Position numbers and translations under genes: made by a program
Notes under the pieces: generated by a model
The model's database searches: none
The model's input: only the letters and a program-made list of their open reading frames with translations
Told to the model about the DNA's origin: nothing
In this document: one piece after another, positions 2 to 7,181 of the stretch
Layout of the letters: every line of letters starts with the position of its first letter
Numbering within the stretch: the stretch's first letter is position 1
NCBI GenBank assembly: GCA_902769805.1
Contig: CACXQL010000032.1
Location: 1-48,158, forward strand
Source of the DNA: an uncultured Prevotellaceae bacterium
GTDB taxonomy: Bacteria; Bacteroidota; Bacteroidia; Bacteroidales; Bacteroidaceae
Length of the DNA stretch: 48,158 nucleotides
Reading direction: 5' to 3'

Positions 2-1042
2 ACGAAGATACGTCGTATCCAAACAGCACTGAGGGAGGCTTCTCAGTTCTATATCCAGTTACACAAGATGGGCTATAACGTCGACTTTGTAGACTGCGGC
101 GGTGGCTTGGGTGTCGATTATGACGGTACTCGTTCTCCATCCAGTGAGAGCTCTGTCAACTACTCCATCCAGGAGTATGTCAACGACTGTATCTATACCT
201 TTGTGGATGCCGCCAACAAGAATGAACTGCCTCATCCTAATATCATTACAGAAAGCGGACGCTCTTTGGCGGCTCATCATTCTGTATTAGTCATCGATGT
301 CCTGGAAACGGCTTCCCTACCAGAGATGCCAGAGGAGTTTGAACCTGACGAGAACAGTCATCAGTTAGTAAAGGACCTCTATGAGATATGGGATAATCTG
401 TCTCCTCGTAATGTTTTGGAAGACTGGCATGATGCTGAACAGATCCGTGAGGAGGTTCTTGACCTTTTCGCTCATGGTATTGTGGATTTGAAGACACGTG
501 CGGAGATAGAGGCAATGTATTGGAGTGTATGCCATGAGATCAATGCCTTGGCAAAGAATCTCAAGCATATCCCGGAAGAGTTGATGAACATCGATAAGTT
601 GTTGGCAGATAAGTATTTCTGCAACTTCTCGTTGTTCCAGAGCCTCAGCGACTCCTGGGCAATTGACCAGATGTTCCCCATTGTACCCTTGCAGCATTCA
701 CTGCCTGTCCATCCTCTGAAGAAGAACGAGCCTTATTACCTTGGCGTCTTCCTTGTGGGAGCCTATCAGGAAATCTTAGGTGACATGCATAACCTCTTTG
801 GTGATACTACCGCTGTACATATCTCTGTGAAGGACAAAGGCTATCATATCGACCAGATTATCGATGGTGAGACTGTGGCTGAGGTTCTGGAATATGTGCA
901 GTATGCTCCGAAGAAACTCGTGCGCCAACTGGAGATATGGGTGGCGAAGAGTGTGAAACAAGGAAAGATATCTTTAGAAGAAGGCAAAGAGTTCCTTAGC
1001 AACTACCGCTCAGGGCTCTACGGCTATACTTATCTGGAATAA
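2..1042 (+). CDS. speA: Biosynthetic arginine decarboxylase, 3' part, with apparent internal deletion
   Basis: The gene enters from the left edge, so its start is outside the window; 346 residues are visible in the frame beginning at base 2. SpeA is a PLP enzyme that converts arginine to agmatine for polyamine synthesis. Visible hallmarks are the glycine-rich phosphate loop DCGGGLGVDYDGT, the ESGRSLAAHH strand, the FLVGAYQEILGDMHNLFGD block and the C-terminal SNYRSGLYGYTYLE. Oddly, FPIVPL is followed almost at once by HSLPVHPLKK (near 685-700). In the family this junction normally holds about 35 residues with the catalytic motif TCDSDG, which is absent here, while the reading frame stays open. 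This suggests an in-frame deletion that would impair catalysis, or an assembly error. The next gene starts 21 nt downstream. Confidence 0.93.
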   Translation, partial: TKIRRIQTALREASQFYIQLHKMGYNVDFVDCGGGLGVDYDGTRSPSSESSVNYSIQEYVNDCIYTFVDAANKNELPHPNIITESGRSLAAHHSVLVIDVLETASLPEMPEEFEPDENSHQLVKDLYEIWDNLSPRNVLEDWHDAEQIREEVLDLFAHGIVDLKTRAEIEAMYWSVCHEINALAKNLKHIPEELMNIDKLLADKYFCNFSLFQSLSDSWAIDQMFPIVPLQHSLPVHPLKKNEPYYLGVFLVGAYQEILGDMHNLFGDTTAVHISVKDKGYHIDQIIDGETVAEVLEYVQYAPKKLVRQLEIWVAKSVKQGKISLEEGKEFLSNYRSGLYGYTYLE

Positions 1043-3206: not shown

Positions 3207-3286
3207 AATTTTTTCATTTATTCTGTAACTTTTCTTTTAATCATTCGTCTTTTATTATAGAGGACATAAATACCTCAAGTGAAATA

Positions 3287-3769
3287 ATGGATTATAAGTA
3301 CATCGAACAACTCTTGGAACGCTACTGGGCAGCAGAGACCTCCCTTGAAGAAGAGGATATCCTGCGCGCTTTCTTCAGCCAGAAGGAGATACCTGCTGAA
3401 CTGGAGCAGTATCGTGCCCTCTTTGTCTATGAGGCAACAGAGAAAGAGAGTCAGATGTTAGGTGACGATTTTGACGGGCGTATCCTCGCCATGACAGAAG
3501 AGGAGCCGCATGCTGTCAAGGCTCGTGAGATTCCCTTTAAGGTACGTCTCATGCCACTCTTCAAAGCTGCCGCTATCGTTGCCATTATTCTCACTATAGG
3601 TGGTGCATTACAGCGTCCTTGGGATGCCAGTTGGAACGACTCTGTCGAGGTCGCATCCTACACGCTCCCTGTGGACTCTGCGGATGTCACTCCTATCCAG
3701 GCAGAGAATATCACGGACAGTCCCGTTGATACTGCCAAGGTCATACCTGTCGAGGTTGCCAAGGATTAA
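3287..3769 (+). CDS. Anti-sigma-factor-like single-span membrane protein
   Basis: A 160-residue protein beginning MDYKYIEQLLERYWAAETSLEEE, a head typical of the small protein encoded after ECF sigma genes in Bacteroidales. Residues 1-85 are acidic and probably cytosolic, one hydrophobic span (LFKAAAIVAIILTIGGAL) lies at about 91-108, and the remainder is a short exported tail rich in Asp, Val and Thr. By context it would hold the sigma factor at the membrane. No enzymatic motif is visible, and I do not recognise a named anti-sigma domain. It lies 80 nt after the broken sigma gene and looks intact, so it may now lack its partner. Confidence 0.7.
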   Translation: MDYKYIEQLLERYWAAETSLEEEDILRAFFSQKEIPAELEQYRALFVYEATEKESQMLGDDFDGRILAMTEEEPHAVKAREIPFKVRLMPLFKAAAIVAIILTIGGALQRPWDASWNDSVEVASYTLPVDSADVTPIQAENITDSPVDTAKVIPVEVAKD

Positions 3770-3996: not shown

Positions 3997-4254
3997 ATGG
4001 GAACAAAGGAAAAGTTGCGTGAAAGGTTTCTGAAAATGCCTTCAGACTTTACGTTTGACGAGATGCAACATCTGTTAGAGGGCTATGGCTATGAACGTTA
4101 CAACAAAGGCAAGACTTCTGGATCTCGACTGATTTTTAAGAATGGTGATAAGCGACCTATCATGTTACACAAACCACATCCGGGCAATATAGTTAAAGAA
4201 TATGCCATGAAACAGGTAATGGAAGATTTACGCGAAGCAGGATTTATAAAATAA
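3997..4254 (+). CDS. hicA: HicA-family mRNA interferase toxin
   Basis: An 85-residue basic protein of the YcfA/HicA family, slightly longer than the commonest 60-residue forms. HicA toxins are small double-stranded-RNA-binding-fold ribonucleases that cleave mRNA when not bound by HicB. The family hallmark is the C-terminal block around MLHKPHPGNIVKEY, with the presumed catalytic His in the HKPH stretch, followed by a helix ending EDLREAGFIK. The N-terminal half (DFTFDEMQHLLEGYGYE) matches the family's first helix and strand. It is the first gene of a two-gene operon, 14 nt before the chosen hicB start, with its own promoter and operator. Confidence 0.9.
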   Translation: MGTKEKLRERFLKMPSDFTFDEMQHLLEGYGYERYNKGKTSGSRLIFKNGDKRPIMLHKPHPGNIVKEYAMKQVMEDLREAGFIK

Positions 4255-4255
4255 T

Positions 4256-4261
4256 AGGAGG
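4256..4261 (+). promoter_or_regulatory. Strong Shine-Dalgarno site deciding the hicB start
   Basis: A full AGGAGG lies between the hicA stop and hicB. Its spacing selects ATG 4269 over ATG 4263. Confidence 0.7.
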
Positions 4262-4268
4262 AATGATT

Positions 4269-4613
4269 ATGAATACGATGACGTACAAAGGCTATATAGG
4301 ATCAGTGTCCTATAGCGAAAAAGACCAAGTGTTCTTTGGAAAGATAGAAGGTATCAATGGTCTTGTGAACTTTGAAGGCGAGAGCGTCAAAGAATTAACG
4401 GCTGCATTCCACGAAGCAGTGGACGACTATTTGGCCTATTGCAAGGAAGAAGGCATAGAGCCTGATAAGAGTTATACAGGTGTTCTGAATGTCAGGCTTA
4501 CTCCTGCTATTCATCGTCAGATAGCCAAGCTTGCACTTAAAGCAGGACTTACTATCAATGCGTACATCAAAGATGCATTGGAAGAAAAGGTAGAGGCATC
4601 TTTGGCGGTGTAA
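4269..4613 (+). CDS. hicB: HicB-family antitoxin
   Basis: A 114-residue protein. The first half (YKGYIGSVSYSEKD through DDYLAYCKEEG) is the degraded RNase-H-like HicB fold that binds toxin. The C-terminal third (NVRLTPAIHRQIAKLALKAG, then TINAYIKDALEE) is a ribbon-helix-helix DNA-binding segment, fitting autorepression at the upstream inverted repeat. An ATG at 4263 is only one base after the Shine-Dalgarno AGGAGG (4256-4261), so the ATG at 4269, with 7-nt spacing, is the better start. This AGGAGG is unusually strong for Bacteroidetes and suggests the antitoxin is translated more efficiently than the toxin. Confidence 0.92.
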   Translation: MNTMTYKGYIGSVSYSEKDQVFFGKIEGINGLVNFEGESVKELTAAFHEAVDDYLAYCKEEGIEPDKSYTGVLNVRLTPAIHRQIAKLALKAGLTINAYIKDALEEKVEASLAV

Positions 4614-4705
4614 TCTTATAATTATCTCCCGATATTCTTTGTGAGTATTTGGATTTTGTATCTTTACGATTTTATATCCAACCCTTTAAATGCTGAAATA
4701 ACTTA

Positions 4706-4730
4706 GGAGTGCCCAAGCACTCCTTTTTTG
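4706..4730 (+). terminator. Intrinsic terminator downstream of hicB
   Basis: GGAGTGC (4706-4712) and GCACTCC (4717-4723) form a 7-bp stem with a 4-nt loop, followed by TTTTTTG. It lies 92 nt after hicB. A TATCTTTA-like -7 sequence lies between hicB and the hairpin, so a short independent transcript is possible but unproven. Confidence 0.85.
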
Positions 4731-4860
4731 TTTCCCCAATTCTTTTGTTTTTCAAAGTAATCGTATCTTTAACATGCTTGATACCTTTAGGTGTAAGAAT
4801 TCCTTAGACCTTAGTCTTTAGACTTTTGACAAAGTAATATGCTAATTTCCTTTCGAAACA

Positions 4861-4892
4861 TTTGCAACTTTAAGAATTTATTTCTATCTTTG
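4861..4892 (+). promoter_or_regulatory. Strong promoter for the structured leader upstream of the LRR gene
   Basis: TTTG (4861-4864), 20 nt, then TATCTTTG (4885-4892) is an exact match to the Bacteroidetes housekeeping promoter. It points into about 300 nt of non-coding sequence, predicting transcription from about 4898. Confidence 0.8.
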
Positions 4893-4893
4893 C

Positions 4894-5197
4894 AGTGTTC
4901 TCACGCCGAAGTCACTCCAGAGTGGCGGTTGGTAGAGGGCAGACATAATGATAAAAGCGTTTGCTGACGCTTGGTTTTGATCGTTGAAACTTCGAACACT
5001 TCAATGTCACATCACGAACCAATGCAACGGTAGATGCTCATGGGTATGTAATATCAAGTCCATGTGCCTTATTATTTATATAAGGTGGATTAGCATATAT
5101 ACATACGGCGTGGGGTCTTCGTTGCTCGTTTCGATGTGACGGGTAAGTTCGAAGACCTCAACGATGGAACGGGTAACGGTAAGGGTTCCACGTTTTT
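4894..5197 (+). ncRNA. Putative structured leader RNA or small RNA upstream of the LRR gene
   Basis: No gene is evident here, but complementary arms are dense. AGTGTTC (4894-4900) pairs with GAACACT (4994-5000); AAGCGT (4955-4960) with ACGCTT (4967-4972). GTCACATC (5006-5013) pairs with GATGTGAC (5133-5140) and, nested inside, GCAACG (5024-5029) with CGTTGC (5120-5125). Further in are GTATGT/ACATAC (5044-5049/5101-5106) and CCTTAT/ATAAGG (5067-5072/5080-5085). The arm 5111-5121 can instead pair with 5150-5160 over 11 bp, which excludes the long-range helix. The 3' end (5161-5193) is a hairpin with stem TGGAAC/GTTCCA followed by TTTTT. The arrangement fits an attenuated leader or riboswitch, or a separate sRNA. 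I do not recognise a known RNA family. Confidence 0.6.
5161..5197 (+). terminator. Terminator-like hairpin between leader RNA and LRR gene
   Basis: TGGAAC (5165-5170) pairs with GTTCCA (5185-5190), extended by ACG/CGT (5161-5163/5191-5193) around one bulged A, and T5193-T5197 follows. It would end the leader transcript about 85 nt before the LRR start codon. Confidence 0.6.
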
Positions 5198-5281
5198 GGT
5201 GCAATGACGTCACGTTGCTGCATGTTTTCCAACAATAACGTCTGGGAAGGGACTGAAGGACAGGACTTTAGTAACAATGCA

Positions 5282-7042
5282 ATGAAACATTTTTACGTAA
5301 AACTAATGATGTTAACTGTGCTCATGAGCATGGTTGGCATAAGAATCTTTGCCCATGACTATGCAGTGGAAAATACCGACGGCAAAACCATTTATTATAA
5401 TAATATAGGTGGTTCGAATGTCTCCGTCACTTTCAAAGGATATGGAGGAGAGTATTTTTATTCAGGAAATATCGTGATACCAGAATCAATTATTGTGGGA
5501 GGAAATACCTATAACGTGACGAGTATCGGCAGGGAAGCGTTCTATGAATGCAGTGGTCTGACCTCCGTGACCATCCCCAACAGTGTGACGAGCATTGGGT
5601 ATGGCGCTTTCAAAAGTTGCACAGGTCTGACTTTTATAGAGATTCCGAATAGCGTGACGACCATTGGCGAGGAGGCGTTTTGGTATTGCCCGGGATTGAT
5701 ATCCATAGAGATTCCAAACAGTGTGACAAGTATCGGCAGGGAAGCGTTCAGAGGTTGCAGCGGTCTGACCACTATAACGATTCCTAATAGCGTAACAACC
5801 ATTGGTTATGATGCATTCGTTGGTACTGCATGGTATAACAATCAGCCCAATGGACTGGTGTATGCAGGAAAGGTAGCATACAAATATAAAGGAACTATGC
5901 CAGCCAACACAAGTCTTACGATAGAGGATGGTACATTGGGAATTGCATGTCAGGCGTTCGAGAATTGCAGCGGTCTGACTTCTATAGAGATTCCGAATAG
6001 CGTAACGACCATTTGTTGGGATGCGTTCTATGGTACTACATGGTATAACAATCAACCCAATGGATTGGTATATGCAGGAAAGGTAGCATATCAATACAAA
6101 GGAACGATGCCAGCCAATACGAATATTACCATAGAGGATGGTACATTGGGAATTGCCGATATTGCGTTTTATAATTGCACAGGTCTGACTTCTATAGAGA
6201 TTCCTAATAGTGTGACGAACATTGGCGAAAATGCGTTCGATGGTTGCAGTGGTCTGACCTCAATAGAGATTCCCAACAGCGTGACGAGTATCGGCCATGA
6301 TGCGTTCTATCACTGCAGCGGCCTCACCTCAATAATATTTGATAATTGTAGGCCAACATTAAGCGATGATGTTTTTTGTTTGTGCAGTAATCTGACAGAC
6401 ATCTATTACCCAGCATACGCCTATGACTATTTTACATCGAATGCACAAACAAGCGTTTATACCCTTCACCCACAAATCAAGATTGATCGTGAGTGGACGA
6501 CTTATTGTGCATCAGCATCGTTTGACGTGCCTGAGGGTATTGACGCATACGTTGTGAACAGTTATGACGCTGGCGTGGTGACGTTGCAGAAGGTGACAAC
6601 CATCAATGCAGGGCAGGGACTGCTGTTGAAACCTGCTGAGGTGGGAACATTTTACAATACAACAGTATGTGCATCGGCTCCTGACCCCTATGAGAGCAAT
6701 ATGCTGAAAGGCGTAACAACAGCAACAGCGATTGGTGCTACCAGTGGTGAGTATACTAATTTCATCTTTACCAAGGTAAATGGTGAGTTGGGATTCTATC
6801 CTACCAATGCAGGAACGATACCTGCTTATAAGGCATATCTACAGATTCCTACTGCTTCCTTGCCAAGTGGTGCTCCTTCCCGTCTGTCCATTGCGATAGA
6901 TGATGAAACGACAAGTGTGGAGCGAGTAAAGACTAATACAGGAAAAGATTCAAATTGGTATACGCTCAGTGGTGTGCAGGCTAAGCAGCCGACAAAGAGT
7001 GGCGTTTATATTCATCAAGGTAAGAAGGTAATCATTAAATAA
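5282..7042 (+). CDS. Secreted BspA-like leucine-rich-repeat protein
   Basis: A 586-residue protein using the ATG at 5282, which gives a clean signal peptide (MKHFYVKLMMLTVLMSMVG, likely cleaved before HDYAVEN). The open frame extends upstream to 5204 but that extension would bury the signal. Residues of about 80-350 are LRR_5-type repeats of about 23 residues built on GLTSIEIPNSVTSIG, interrupted by two copies of a WYNNQPNGLVYAGKVAY module. A middle domain (EWTTYCASASFDVPEGIDAY onward) and a C-terminal module (WYTLSGVQAKQPTKSGVYIH ending KKVIIK) follow, the latter like Por/type-IX-secretion sorting tails in Prevotella. BspA-like proteins bind host or matrix proteins; the ligand here is unknown. 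A 42-residue peptide gene follows 10 nt downstream. Confidence 0.88.
   Translation: MKHFYVKLMMLTVLMSMVGIRIFAHDYAVENTDGKTIYYNNIGGSNVSVTFKGYGGEYFYSGNIVIPESIIVGGNTYNVTSIGREAFYECSGLTSVTIPNSVTSIGYGAFKSCTGLTFIEIPNSVTTIGEEAFWYCPGLISIEIPNSVTSIGREAFRGCSGLTTITIPNSVTTIGYDAFVGTAWYNNQPNGLVYAGKVAYKYKGTMPANTSLTIEDGTLGIACQAFENCSGLTSIEIPNSVTTICWDAFYGTTWYNNQPNGLVYAGKVAYQYKGTMPANTNITIEDGTLGIADIAFYNCTGLTSIEIPNSVTNIGENAFDGCSGLTSIEIPNSVTSIGHDAFYHCSGLTSIIFDNCRPTLSDDVFCLCSNLTDIYYPAYAYDYFTSNAQTSVYTLHPQIKIDREWTTYCASASFDVPEGIDAYVVNSYDAGVVTLQKVTTINAGQGLLLKPAEVGTFYNTTVCASAPDPYESNMLKGVTTATAIGATSGEYTNFIFTKVNGELGFYPTNAGTIPAYKAYLQIPTASLPSGAPSRLSIAIDDETTSVERVKTNTGKDSNWYTLSGVQAKQPTKSGVYIHQGKKVIIK
5529..6340 (+). repeat. Tandem 69-bp coding repeats with a 210-bp duplication
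   Basis: The LRR units repeat every 69 bp with strong nucleotide identity. A larger unit starting at the GGT codon 5822 recurs at 6032, exactly 210 bp (70 codons) later, with most codons shared. This indicates recent duplication and a substrate for slippage or recombination. Confidence 0.85.
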
Positions 7043-7052
7043 GAGAACAACA

Positions 7053-7181
7053 ATGAAAAAGAAATATATGAAACCTGTTGTACAGACGATAGTCTTGCAA
7101 CAAAGCGTGATGCTGCTTGCCGGTTCCGACACATTTAATGTGCACGATGATACGTCAGTCAATCCAGAAGATACATGGTAA
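7053..7181 (+). CDS. 42-residue conserved-looking small protein
   Basis: An open frame begins MKKKYMKPVVQTIVLQQSVM and ends with NPEDTW, 10 nt after the LRR gene stop and immediately before a strong terminator. Small Bacteroidales proteins that open with MKK-YxKP and carry a central LLAG/LLxxS stretch are common next to exported proteins. The acidic tail after LLAGSDTFN looks like a cleavable peptide with an N-terminal leader part. No function is known to me; a secreted peptide or peptide precursor is a guess. Position in the operon and the terminator right behind the stop support it as a real gene. Confidence 0.6.
   Translation: MKKKYMKPVVQTIVLQQSVMLLAGSDTFNVHDDTSVNPEDTW

Follow-up and report, generated by a model that had tools for sequence, protein, structure and literature searches.

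Within the window, the 48,158-nucleotide stretch of DNA analysed here, the gene for a BspA-type LRR surface protein lies behind a long apparent 5' leader with its own promoter (Table 1). Directly upstream of the leader is a HicA toxin and HicB antitoxin-like pair (3997-4613; PF07927, PF05534), after which comes a terminator-like hairpin at 4705-4724, and directly after the LRR gene is a 42-residue frame (7053-7181) for which Pfam gives nothing at E up to 0.01. The mechanically called frame of the LRR gene begins at 5204, within the leader, and the start codon is likely that at 5282, which by eye opens a signal-peptide-like sequence (MKHFYVKLMM...). The promoter, described as perfect in an earlier sequence-only reading, matches the Bacteroidetes -33/-7 type and would place the transcript start near 4897. 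Promoter elements of this type recur beyond the TTTG-20-TATCTTTG of this locus: among 177 copies of the leader, 163 have the -7 element TAnnTTTG[CT] within 170 nt upstream, compared with 18 of 463 control stretches, and the full promoter (TTTG-17..23-TAnnTTTG) precedes 67 copies as against 5 of the 463 controls. A sigma-70 scan of the window, which looks for the wrong promoter type, performed at the level of chance (2 found, 2.7 expected).

Table 1. Features of the locus and elements of the leader RNA, in window coordinates
Feature	Position	Strand	Remarks
Promoter, Bacteroidetes type	4861-4892	+	-33 TTTG 4861-4864; 20 nt; -7 TATCTTTG 4885-4892; read from sequence
P0, 5' hairpin	4896-4941	+	at transcript start; 4894-4942 alone folds at -20.0 kcal/mol
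P1, core-closing helix	4943-5213	+	5' strand near 4943-4950; 3' strand just past U-run
P2 hairpin	4955-4972	+	98.0% of cells paired
PK2 pseudoknot	P2 loop 4961-4964 with 5030-5033	+	94.4% of cells paired; outside model R1
P3 helix	4972-4979/5013-5021	+	forms pseudoknots with P4 and P6; window copy has 6 of 7 pairs
P4 helix	4980-4986/5159-5165	+	99.7% of cells paired
P5 hairpin	4986-5002	+	91.5% of cells paired in two counted pairs
P5 kissing-loop strand CTTCGAA	4990-4996	+	
P6 helix	5006-5013/5133-5140	+	window strands GTCACATC/GATGTGAC fully complementary on reading
P7a	5024-5029/5120-5125	+	99-100% of cells paired
P7b	5037-5041/5110-5114	+	92-95% of cells paired
P7 variable apical hairpin	about 5043-5106	+	
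Possible antiterminator pairing	GCGTGG 5108-5113 with CCACGT 5188-5193	+	tentative
P8 hairpin	5142-5157	+	stem 100% of cells paired
PK1 kissing loop	P8 loop TTCGAAG 5148-5154 with P5 loop	+	99.9% of cells paired
P9 hairpin, terminator-like	TGGAAC 5165-5170/GTTCCA 5185-5190	+	96.0% of cells paired
P9 U-run T5	5193-5197	+	84 nt before likely LRR start codon
P10, small hairpin with GGGA	5240-5253	+	window hairpin by eye
BspA-type LRR surface protein gene	5282-7042	+	PF13306, E 9.5e-68

The RNA predicted from this promoter (4897-5281) has an MFE of -132.7 kcal/mol against -105.1 +/- 5.1 in 100 dinucleotide shuffles, none of which is as stable (z -5.5). The thermodynamic fold was rejected as a guide to structure, since it departs from the fold that covariation supports. 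Covariance model R1 was built from 19 copies and contains 37 pairs (P2, P4, part of P5, P7, P8 and P9), with P3, P6, PK1 and PK2 outside it. An alignment of 100 copies (the window plus 99 loci out of 179 eligible, 100 matches in all and including all 19 R1 copies) was fitted to R1, so that counts for the model's own helices lean towards R1. The written structure has 57 pairs, among them those of the P5-P8 kissing loop and of two further pseudoknot helices. Across the 100 distinct copies, 92.4% of its cells form standard pairs, compared with 80.7 +/- 0.3% in shuffles and 39.8-47.2% when the structure is slid. Changes on both sides are present at 42 of the 57 pairs (29.0 +/- 2.0 in shuffles), the covariation score is 0.407 (0.193 in shuffles), and none of 500 shuffles reaches any of five structure measures, although the shuffles ignore relatedness and the choice of structure was helped by the same 100 copies. 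A structure-free ranking of covariation places P4 and PK1 first, then P6, P2, P7c, P8, PK2 and P3; some column pairs off the structure also rank high, namely 51-385 and 53-386 beside PK1 and 132-334 between P7 columns. The very strong covariation confirms that this is a real structured RNA. The original proposal of a promoter-driven structured RNA, with covariation named as a check, is thus upheld both by folding energy and by double changes.

The conserved structure spans almost the entire 5' leader, from the P0 hairpin to the P10 hairpin. All four Watson-Crick types occur at each of the six counted pairs of P4, and in a plain alignment of 19 copies made before any model, seven P4 pairs form in 19 of 19 and six have three or four types. 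PK1, which lies outside R1, has both-side changes at five of its seven pairs; P3, also outside R1, is paired in 83.6% and 91.4% of cells in its two parts, and P7c in 91.5%. P6 is the weakest element (70.2% and 45.3% of cells paired in an alignment that was not fitted to it), with high covariation at its centre, and the window copy forms only 2 of 8 pairs in the alignment columns because these are one base off on the 5' side. The discontinuous helix first noticed at 5006-5029 with 5120-5140 is present, but as two helices, P6 and P7a, and the terminator-like hairpin noticed ahead of the LRR start is P9 with its T5 run. Folded alone, the P9 region has a mean energy of -12.1 kcal/mol over 100 copies; within the whole core its mean pair probability is 0.06. 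It is absent from a terminator pattern scan because its loop is longer than the scan allows; the scan, on both strands, returned five other sites where 0.9 were expected, P2 and 5201-5218 among them.

For the outer elements, the pairing of each copy's own strands was compared with that of swapped strands. P0 has a mean of -11.1 in 67 copies against -8.3 +/- 0.23 when swapped (0 of 40 as low), P1 a mean of -5.4 in 157 copies against -3.8 +/- 0.15, with a weak duplex in the window copy (-2.2), and the P10 stem -7.5 in 43 copies against -4.8 +/- 0.34. P10 lies about 33 nt before the start codon in 44 of 67 leaders, and its GGGA is found in 57 of 79 ordinary-length leaders compared with 19% in shuffles; the 3' segment overall folds no better than shuffles (mean z -0.03). 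Three further ideas did not survive. A long-range P0-P10 pairing is not convincing (-24.2 against -23.5 +/- 0.44, 1 of 40 swaps as low), and a long closing helix suggested by the MFE (P2 5' arm with CGCUUUU) would give an A-C mismatch in 12 of 13 A-variant copies. In these 13 copies, which have A for G in the P2 5' arm, P2 itself compensates every time. Nor do the conserved pieces read as a peptide, in that by inspection, and uncounted, the frames hit stops and the changes look compensatory.

Copies of this RNA were sought with R1 in a set holding one genome per species. They are present in 194 of 249 genomes of the window's genus (76 of the 107 that are >=90% complete and <=5% contaminated), in 42 of 295 genomes and 30 of 184 genera of its order (38 of 243 genomes at the same thresholds), and in 2 of 395 genomes of a phylum sample, these being the window's own genome and another of the same order. 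Genomes hold several copies, up to at least eight, and given stricter filters and only 5-8 candidates scored per genome, weak matches are lost and copy numbers are lower bounds. By blastn, 42 of 150 genomes of the genus have copies; an exact 26-base pattern matches at least 120 genome stretches, and the named carriers among the matches listed are Phocaeicola oris, Bacteroides acidifaciens, B. rodentium, Paraprevotella clara and P. xylaniphila. Plasmid and phage collections gave no match at blastn sensitivity, and a second pattern matches four viral contigs, with the full core in two. One record named Clostridium sp. MAG, the one Firmicute among 80 listed names, is probably a binning error. In the window's genome there are seven matches to R1, including a second strong copy (contig C11, 203 bits) before a gene that is VWA-like on reading, a third copy (contig C3, 62 bits) and four matches of 20-26 bits (L065-L068), which are shorter forms of 163-197 nt. 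A search for similar upstream regions, as suggested at the outset, thus turned up further copies within the window's genome and in the majority of the genus genomes sampled.

The short forms appear to make up a subclass in which the P7 region is reduced and P4 is kept in all four, as judged from model-fitted alignments; the P5 and P8 loops are complementary on reading in L065, L067 and L068, while the alignment of L066 shows only part of P8. L068 (contig C23) precedes an LRR gene whose start resembles, by eye, that of the window gene. In L031 (minus strand, about 3254-3506), L043 and L049, GGGAACGCCCC replaces the GGUAGAUGCUCAU of most copies, and this variant precedes genes that are VWA-like on reading, possibly a subtype matched to gene type.

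Merging of duplicates left 182 distinct copies, a count that leaves out seven pattern loci lacking a full core, one partial copy (L044) and five weak matches (L065-L068 and L097); seven have too little downstream sequence, and 175 could be assessed. In 162 of the 175 the longest nearby downstream frame shares the strand of the RNA; in 8 it lies on the other strand, and in 5 there is none. The rule behind these calls errs at times: L078 is called opposite though close to L077, and L031 is scored as having none, since its same-strand frame extends back into the RNA. Called starts lie 40-130 nt past the core in 115 of the 162, with a median of 77, and the remainder range from 53 nt before the end of the core to 316 nt past it. 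Upstream, the nearest frame shows a weaker strand preference (84 same, 46 opposite, 36 none). As in riboswitches, a conserved structured domain thus sits in what would be, if the transcript is continuous, the 5' leader of mRNAs. Because 162 of 175 copies precede a same-strand frame, position favours a gene-facing leader over a stand-alone sRNA; of the options originally offered, riboswitch or attenuator is preferred and sRNA is not.

The genes behind the leader are diverse and enriched for exported-like proteins. An N-terminal hydrophobicity rule classes 102 of 160 downstream proteins as exported-like compared with 109 of 341 other frames at the same loci (Fisher p 2.5e-11), and 86 of 160 compared with 94 of 341 when only the called start is used. 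BspA-type LRR proteins recur (16 of 154), with Pfam LRR_5 in 8 of the 62 proteins of one scanned set and in 8 of the 92 of another, which comprises 92 of 100 further frames. Pfam families number 44 among the 62 and 70 among the 92, and in the best 25 of each only LRR-type models exceed three members; among these 62 + 92 proteins, Pfam revealed no gene set pointing to a ligand. A defence regulon was also considered and rejected, PADLOC matches being few (7 families in the set of 92 proteins and 13 in that of 62, with one or two members each). Clusters by blastp have 17 (mostly BspA-like), 6, 5, 5 and 4 members; in several the leader recurs before related proteins only about 33-55% identical, and RNA identity within clusters often does not exceed the overall median of 0.67. 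One cluster of four is UpxY/NusG-like, and 3 of 92 proteins match PF02357; labels such as XRE-like, VWA-like and UpxY-like are sequence readings unless a Pfam match is given. Before the UpxY/NusG-like genes at L158, L213, L236 and L244 the called start is farther away, at 241-248 nt. Two LRR genes of the window's genome carry a copy, one long and one short; since LRR_5 matches there number 90, on 15 contigs, and R1 matches only 7, LRR genes do not in general have the leader. The RNA does stand ahead of an LRR adhesin gene in the window, as first described (PF13306), but the diversity of genes elsewhere means that it is not LRR-specific.

These Bacteroidales RNAs probably constitute a new family of large leaders acting in cis, in which, we infer, folding of the core sets gene output, most likely by attenuation. 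A Bacteroidetes promoter would give rise to a 5' leader, about 385 nt long, in which P0 is followed by a pseudoknotted core with the P5-P8 kissing loop and then by P10, and the folding state of the core would set the amount of the downstream gene product. With the core folded, the P9 hairpin and its U-run would act as a terminator; with the core unfolded, the P7 strand GGCGUGGG would be freed to pair with the P9 3' arm CCCACGCU, allowing read-through. The balance might be tipped by a small ligand, as in a riboswitch, or by a protein. The inner pairs of this possible antiterminator are compatible in 99/100, 99/99, 100/100, 94/99, 96/100 and 99/100 copies and the two outer pairs in only 87/100 and 82/98, a pairing so nearly invariant that covariation barely tests it. 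Two similar copies, L053 and L058, have a matching C-G to U-A change, and L051 has a possible matched deletion. In pseudoknot-free folding the antiterminator is on average 11.9 kcal/mol worse than forced P7a + P9 (0.8 in the window); set against the nested consensus fold, it does better in two of the three copies tried and worse in the third. An extension of P3 through the P2 3' arm likewise fits most copies (98/98, 100/100 and 90/95, with one pair at only 70/99) and is incompatible with P2 and with part of P7a. The antiterminator and the extended P3 together suggest, mostly through the compatibility of their pairs, two mutually exclusive predicted folds.

Against an attenuation riboswitch, the downstream genes share no obvious pathway, whereas most metabolite riboswitches have pathway-coherent gene sets. 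That the RNA represents a new riboswitch-like class of sensor, large and of uncommonly elaborate build, tying many unlinked exported or accessory proteins to one intracellular signal, can be entertained only tentatively. Diverse genes without a common metabolite would also suit a leader that is bound not by a small ligand but by the ribosome, RNA polymerase or a NusG-like factor, and that serves antitermination or translation; the UpxY/NusG-like proteins downstream and the placing of P10 before the start codon are in keeping with such a leader, but the partner protein is putative, and this alternative is judged rather unlikely.

A stand-alone sRNA of about 300 nt, running from the promoter to a terminator at 5193-5197, with the downstream gene incidental or under another promoter, would be consistent with the RNA's own promoter, with the hairpin and following U-rich run visible (uncounted) in 62 listed copies, and with the few copies, 8 opposite and 5 none of 175, that lack a same-strand frame. 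An sRNA should be placed inconsistently with respect to the downstream gene, and neither the 162 to 8 strand bias nor the clustering of starts would be expected of it. Further, P1 closes around the U-run and P10 lies beyond it, so that conserved structure continues past the supposed end of the sRNA, which makes for an improbable explanation. Several copies per genome and patchy occurrence outside the genus might also bring to mind a mobile or selfish element, or a ribozyme inside one, spreading in front of genes. In the wording of PMC11109978, such repeats are marked by several copies per genome and by inconsistent orientation to neighbour genes; the present copies are several, but their orientation (162 of 175) and position are consistent. 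Their ends differ and pair within the copy, unlike fixed terminal repeats, phage and plasmid collections gave no blastn match, viral contigs came from one pattern only, and the RNA recurs with diverged protein relatives, all of which renders a mobile element very improbable. The cis-acting leader remains the preferred reading.

A large, multi-copy and strongly covarying leader that Rfam lacks, spread through the Bacteroidales of gut and rumen, suggests that surface and accessory proteins are under a layer of control not recognised so far. Now that the structure is settled almost to the base pair, its function and any ligand can be tested directly, and Bacteroides acidifaciens DSM 15896 and Paraprevotella clara are named carriers in which to do so. 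That no known family fits, as the sequence-only reading had it, agrees with Rfam 15, which at gathering score gave only one tRNA elsewhere in the whole window, at E up to 10 gave only seven chance-level matches in 4600-5500, and at 20 loci with other copies gave only three tRNAs. Searches of open-licence papers in PubMed Central yielded no description of the RNA. There is none in the available portions of PMC8040213, PMC11109978, PMC2864571 and PMC7366714, the last of which, a Bacteroides thetaiotaomicron transcriptome, showed no link to it in that portion, and PMC8632094 contains none of the searched Bacteroidetes names. An earlier unnamed listing in a supplementary table, a preprint or a subscription paper is possible. 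Structured leader RNAs are a known kind; the family and its architecture appear new.

Among known systems, EAR/epsC RNA (RF01735) is an antitermination RNA, and like it the present RNA is a leader that could act on transcription elongation, here with no Rfam match. Motifs of the Bacteroidales-1 and Bacteroides-1 type have promoter and terminator-like ends, and Bacteroidales-1 adjoins L20 genes; both belong to the same order as the present RNA, and their models give no match. The available part of Weinberg 2010 (PMC2864571) lists EAR for Bacillales and includes Bacteroidales-1 (RF01693), Bacteroides-1 (RF01694) and other Bacteroidetes motifs. The human-microbiome intergenic screen of Fremin and Bhatt 2021 offers 3161 candidates, among them, in the portion available, some in Prevotella near uvrC and in Bacteroidetes near TPR, RuvA and TonB genes, and those with a stated size are 38-132 bp and have other gene contexts than the present RNA (PMC8040213). 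Since human-microbiome intergenic regions were covered, fragments of the present RNA may be among these candidates. Set beside orphan and large riboswitches, the RNA has no Rfam match, no pathway-coherent gene set and a ligand that is only hypothetical. The cobalamin (RF00174) and lysine (RF00168) riboswitches are large riboswitches with loop-loop contacts whose helices follow another order than those of the present RNA, and with them it shares a position in the 5' leader, a pseudoknotted core, a loop-loop helix and a terminator-like hairpin downstream.
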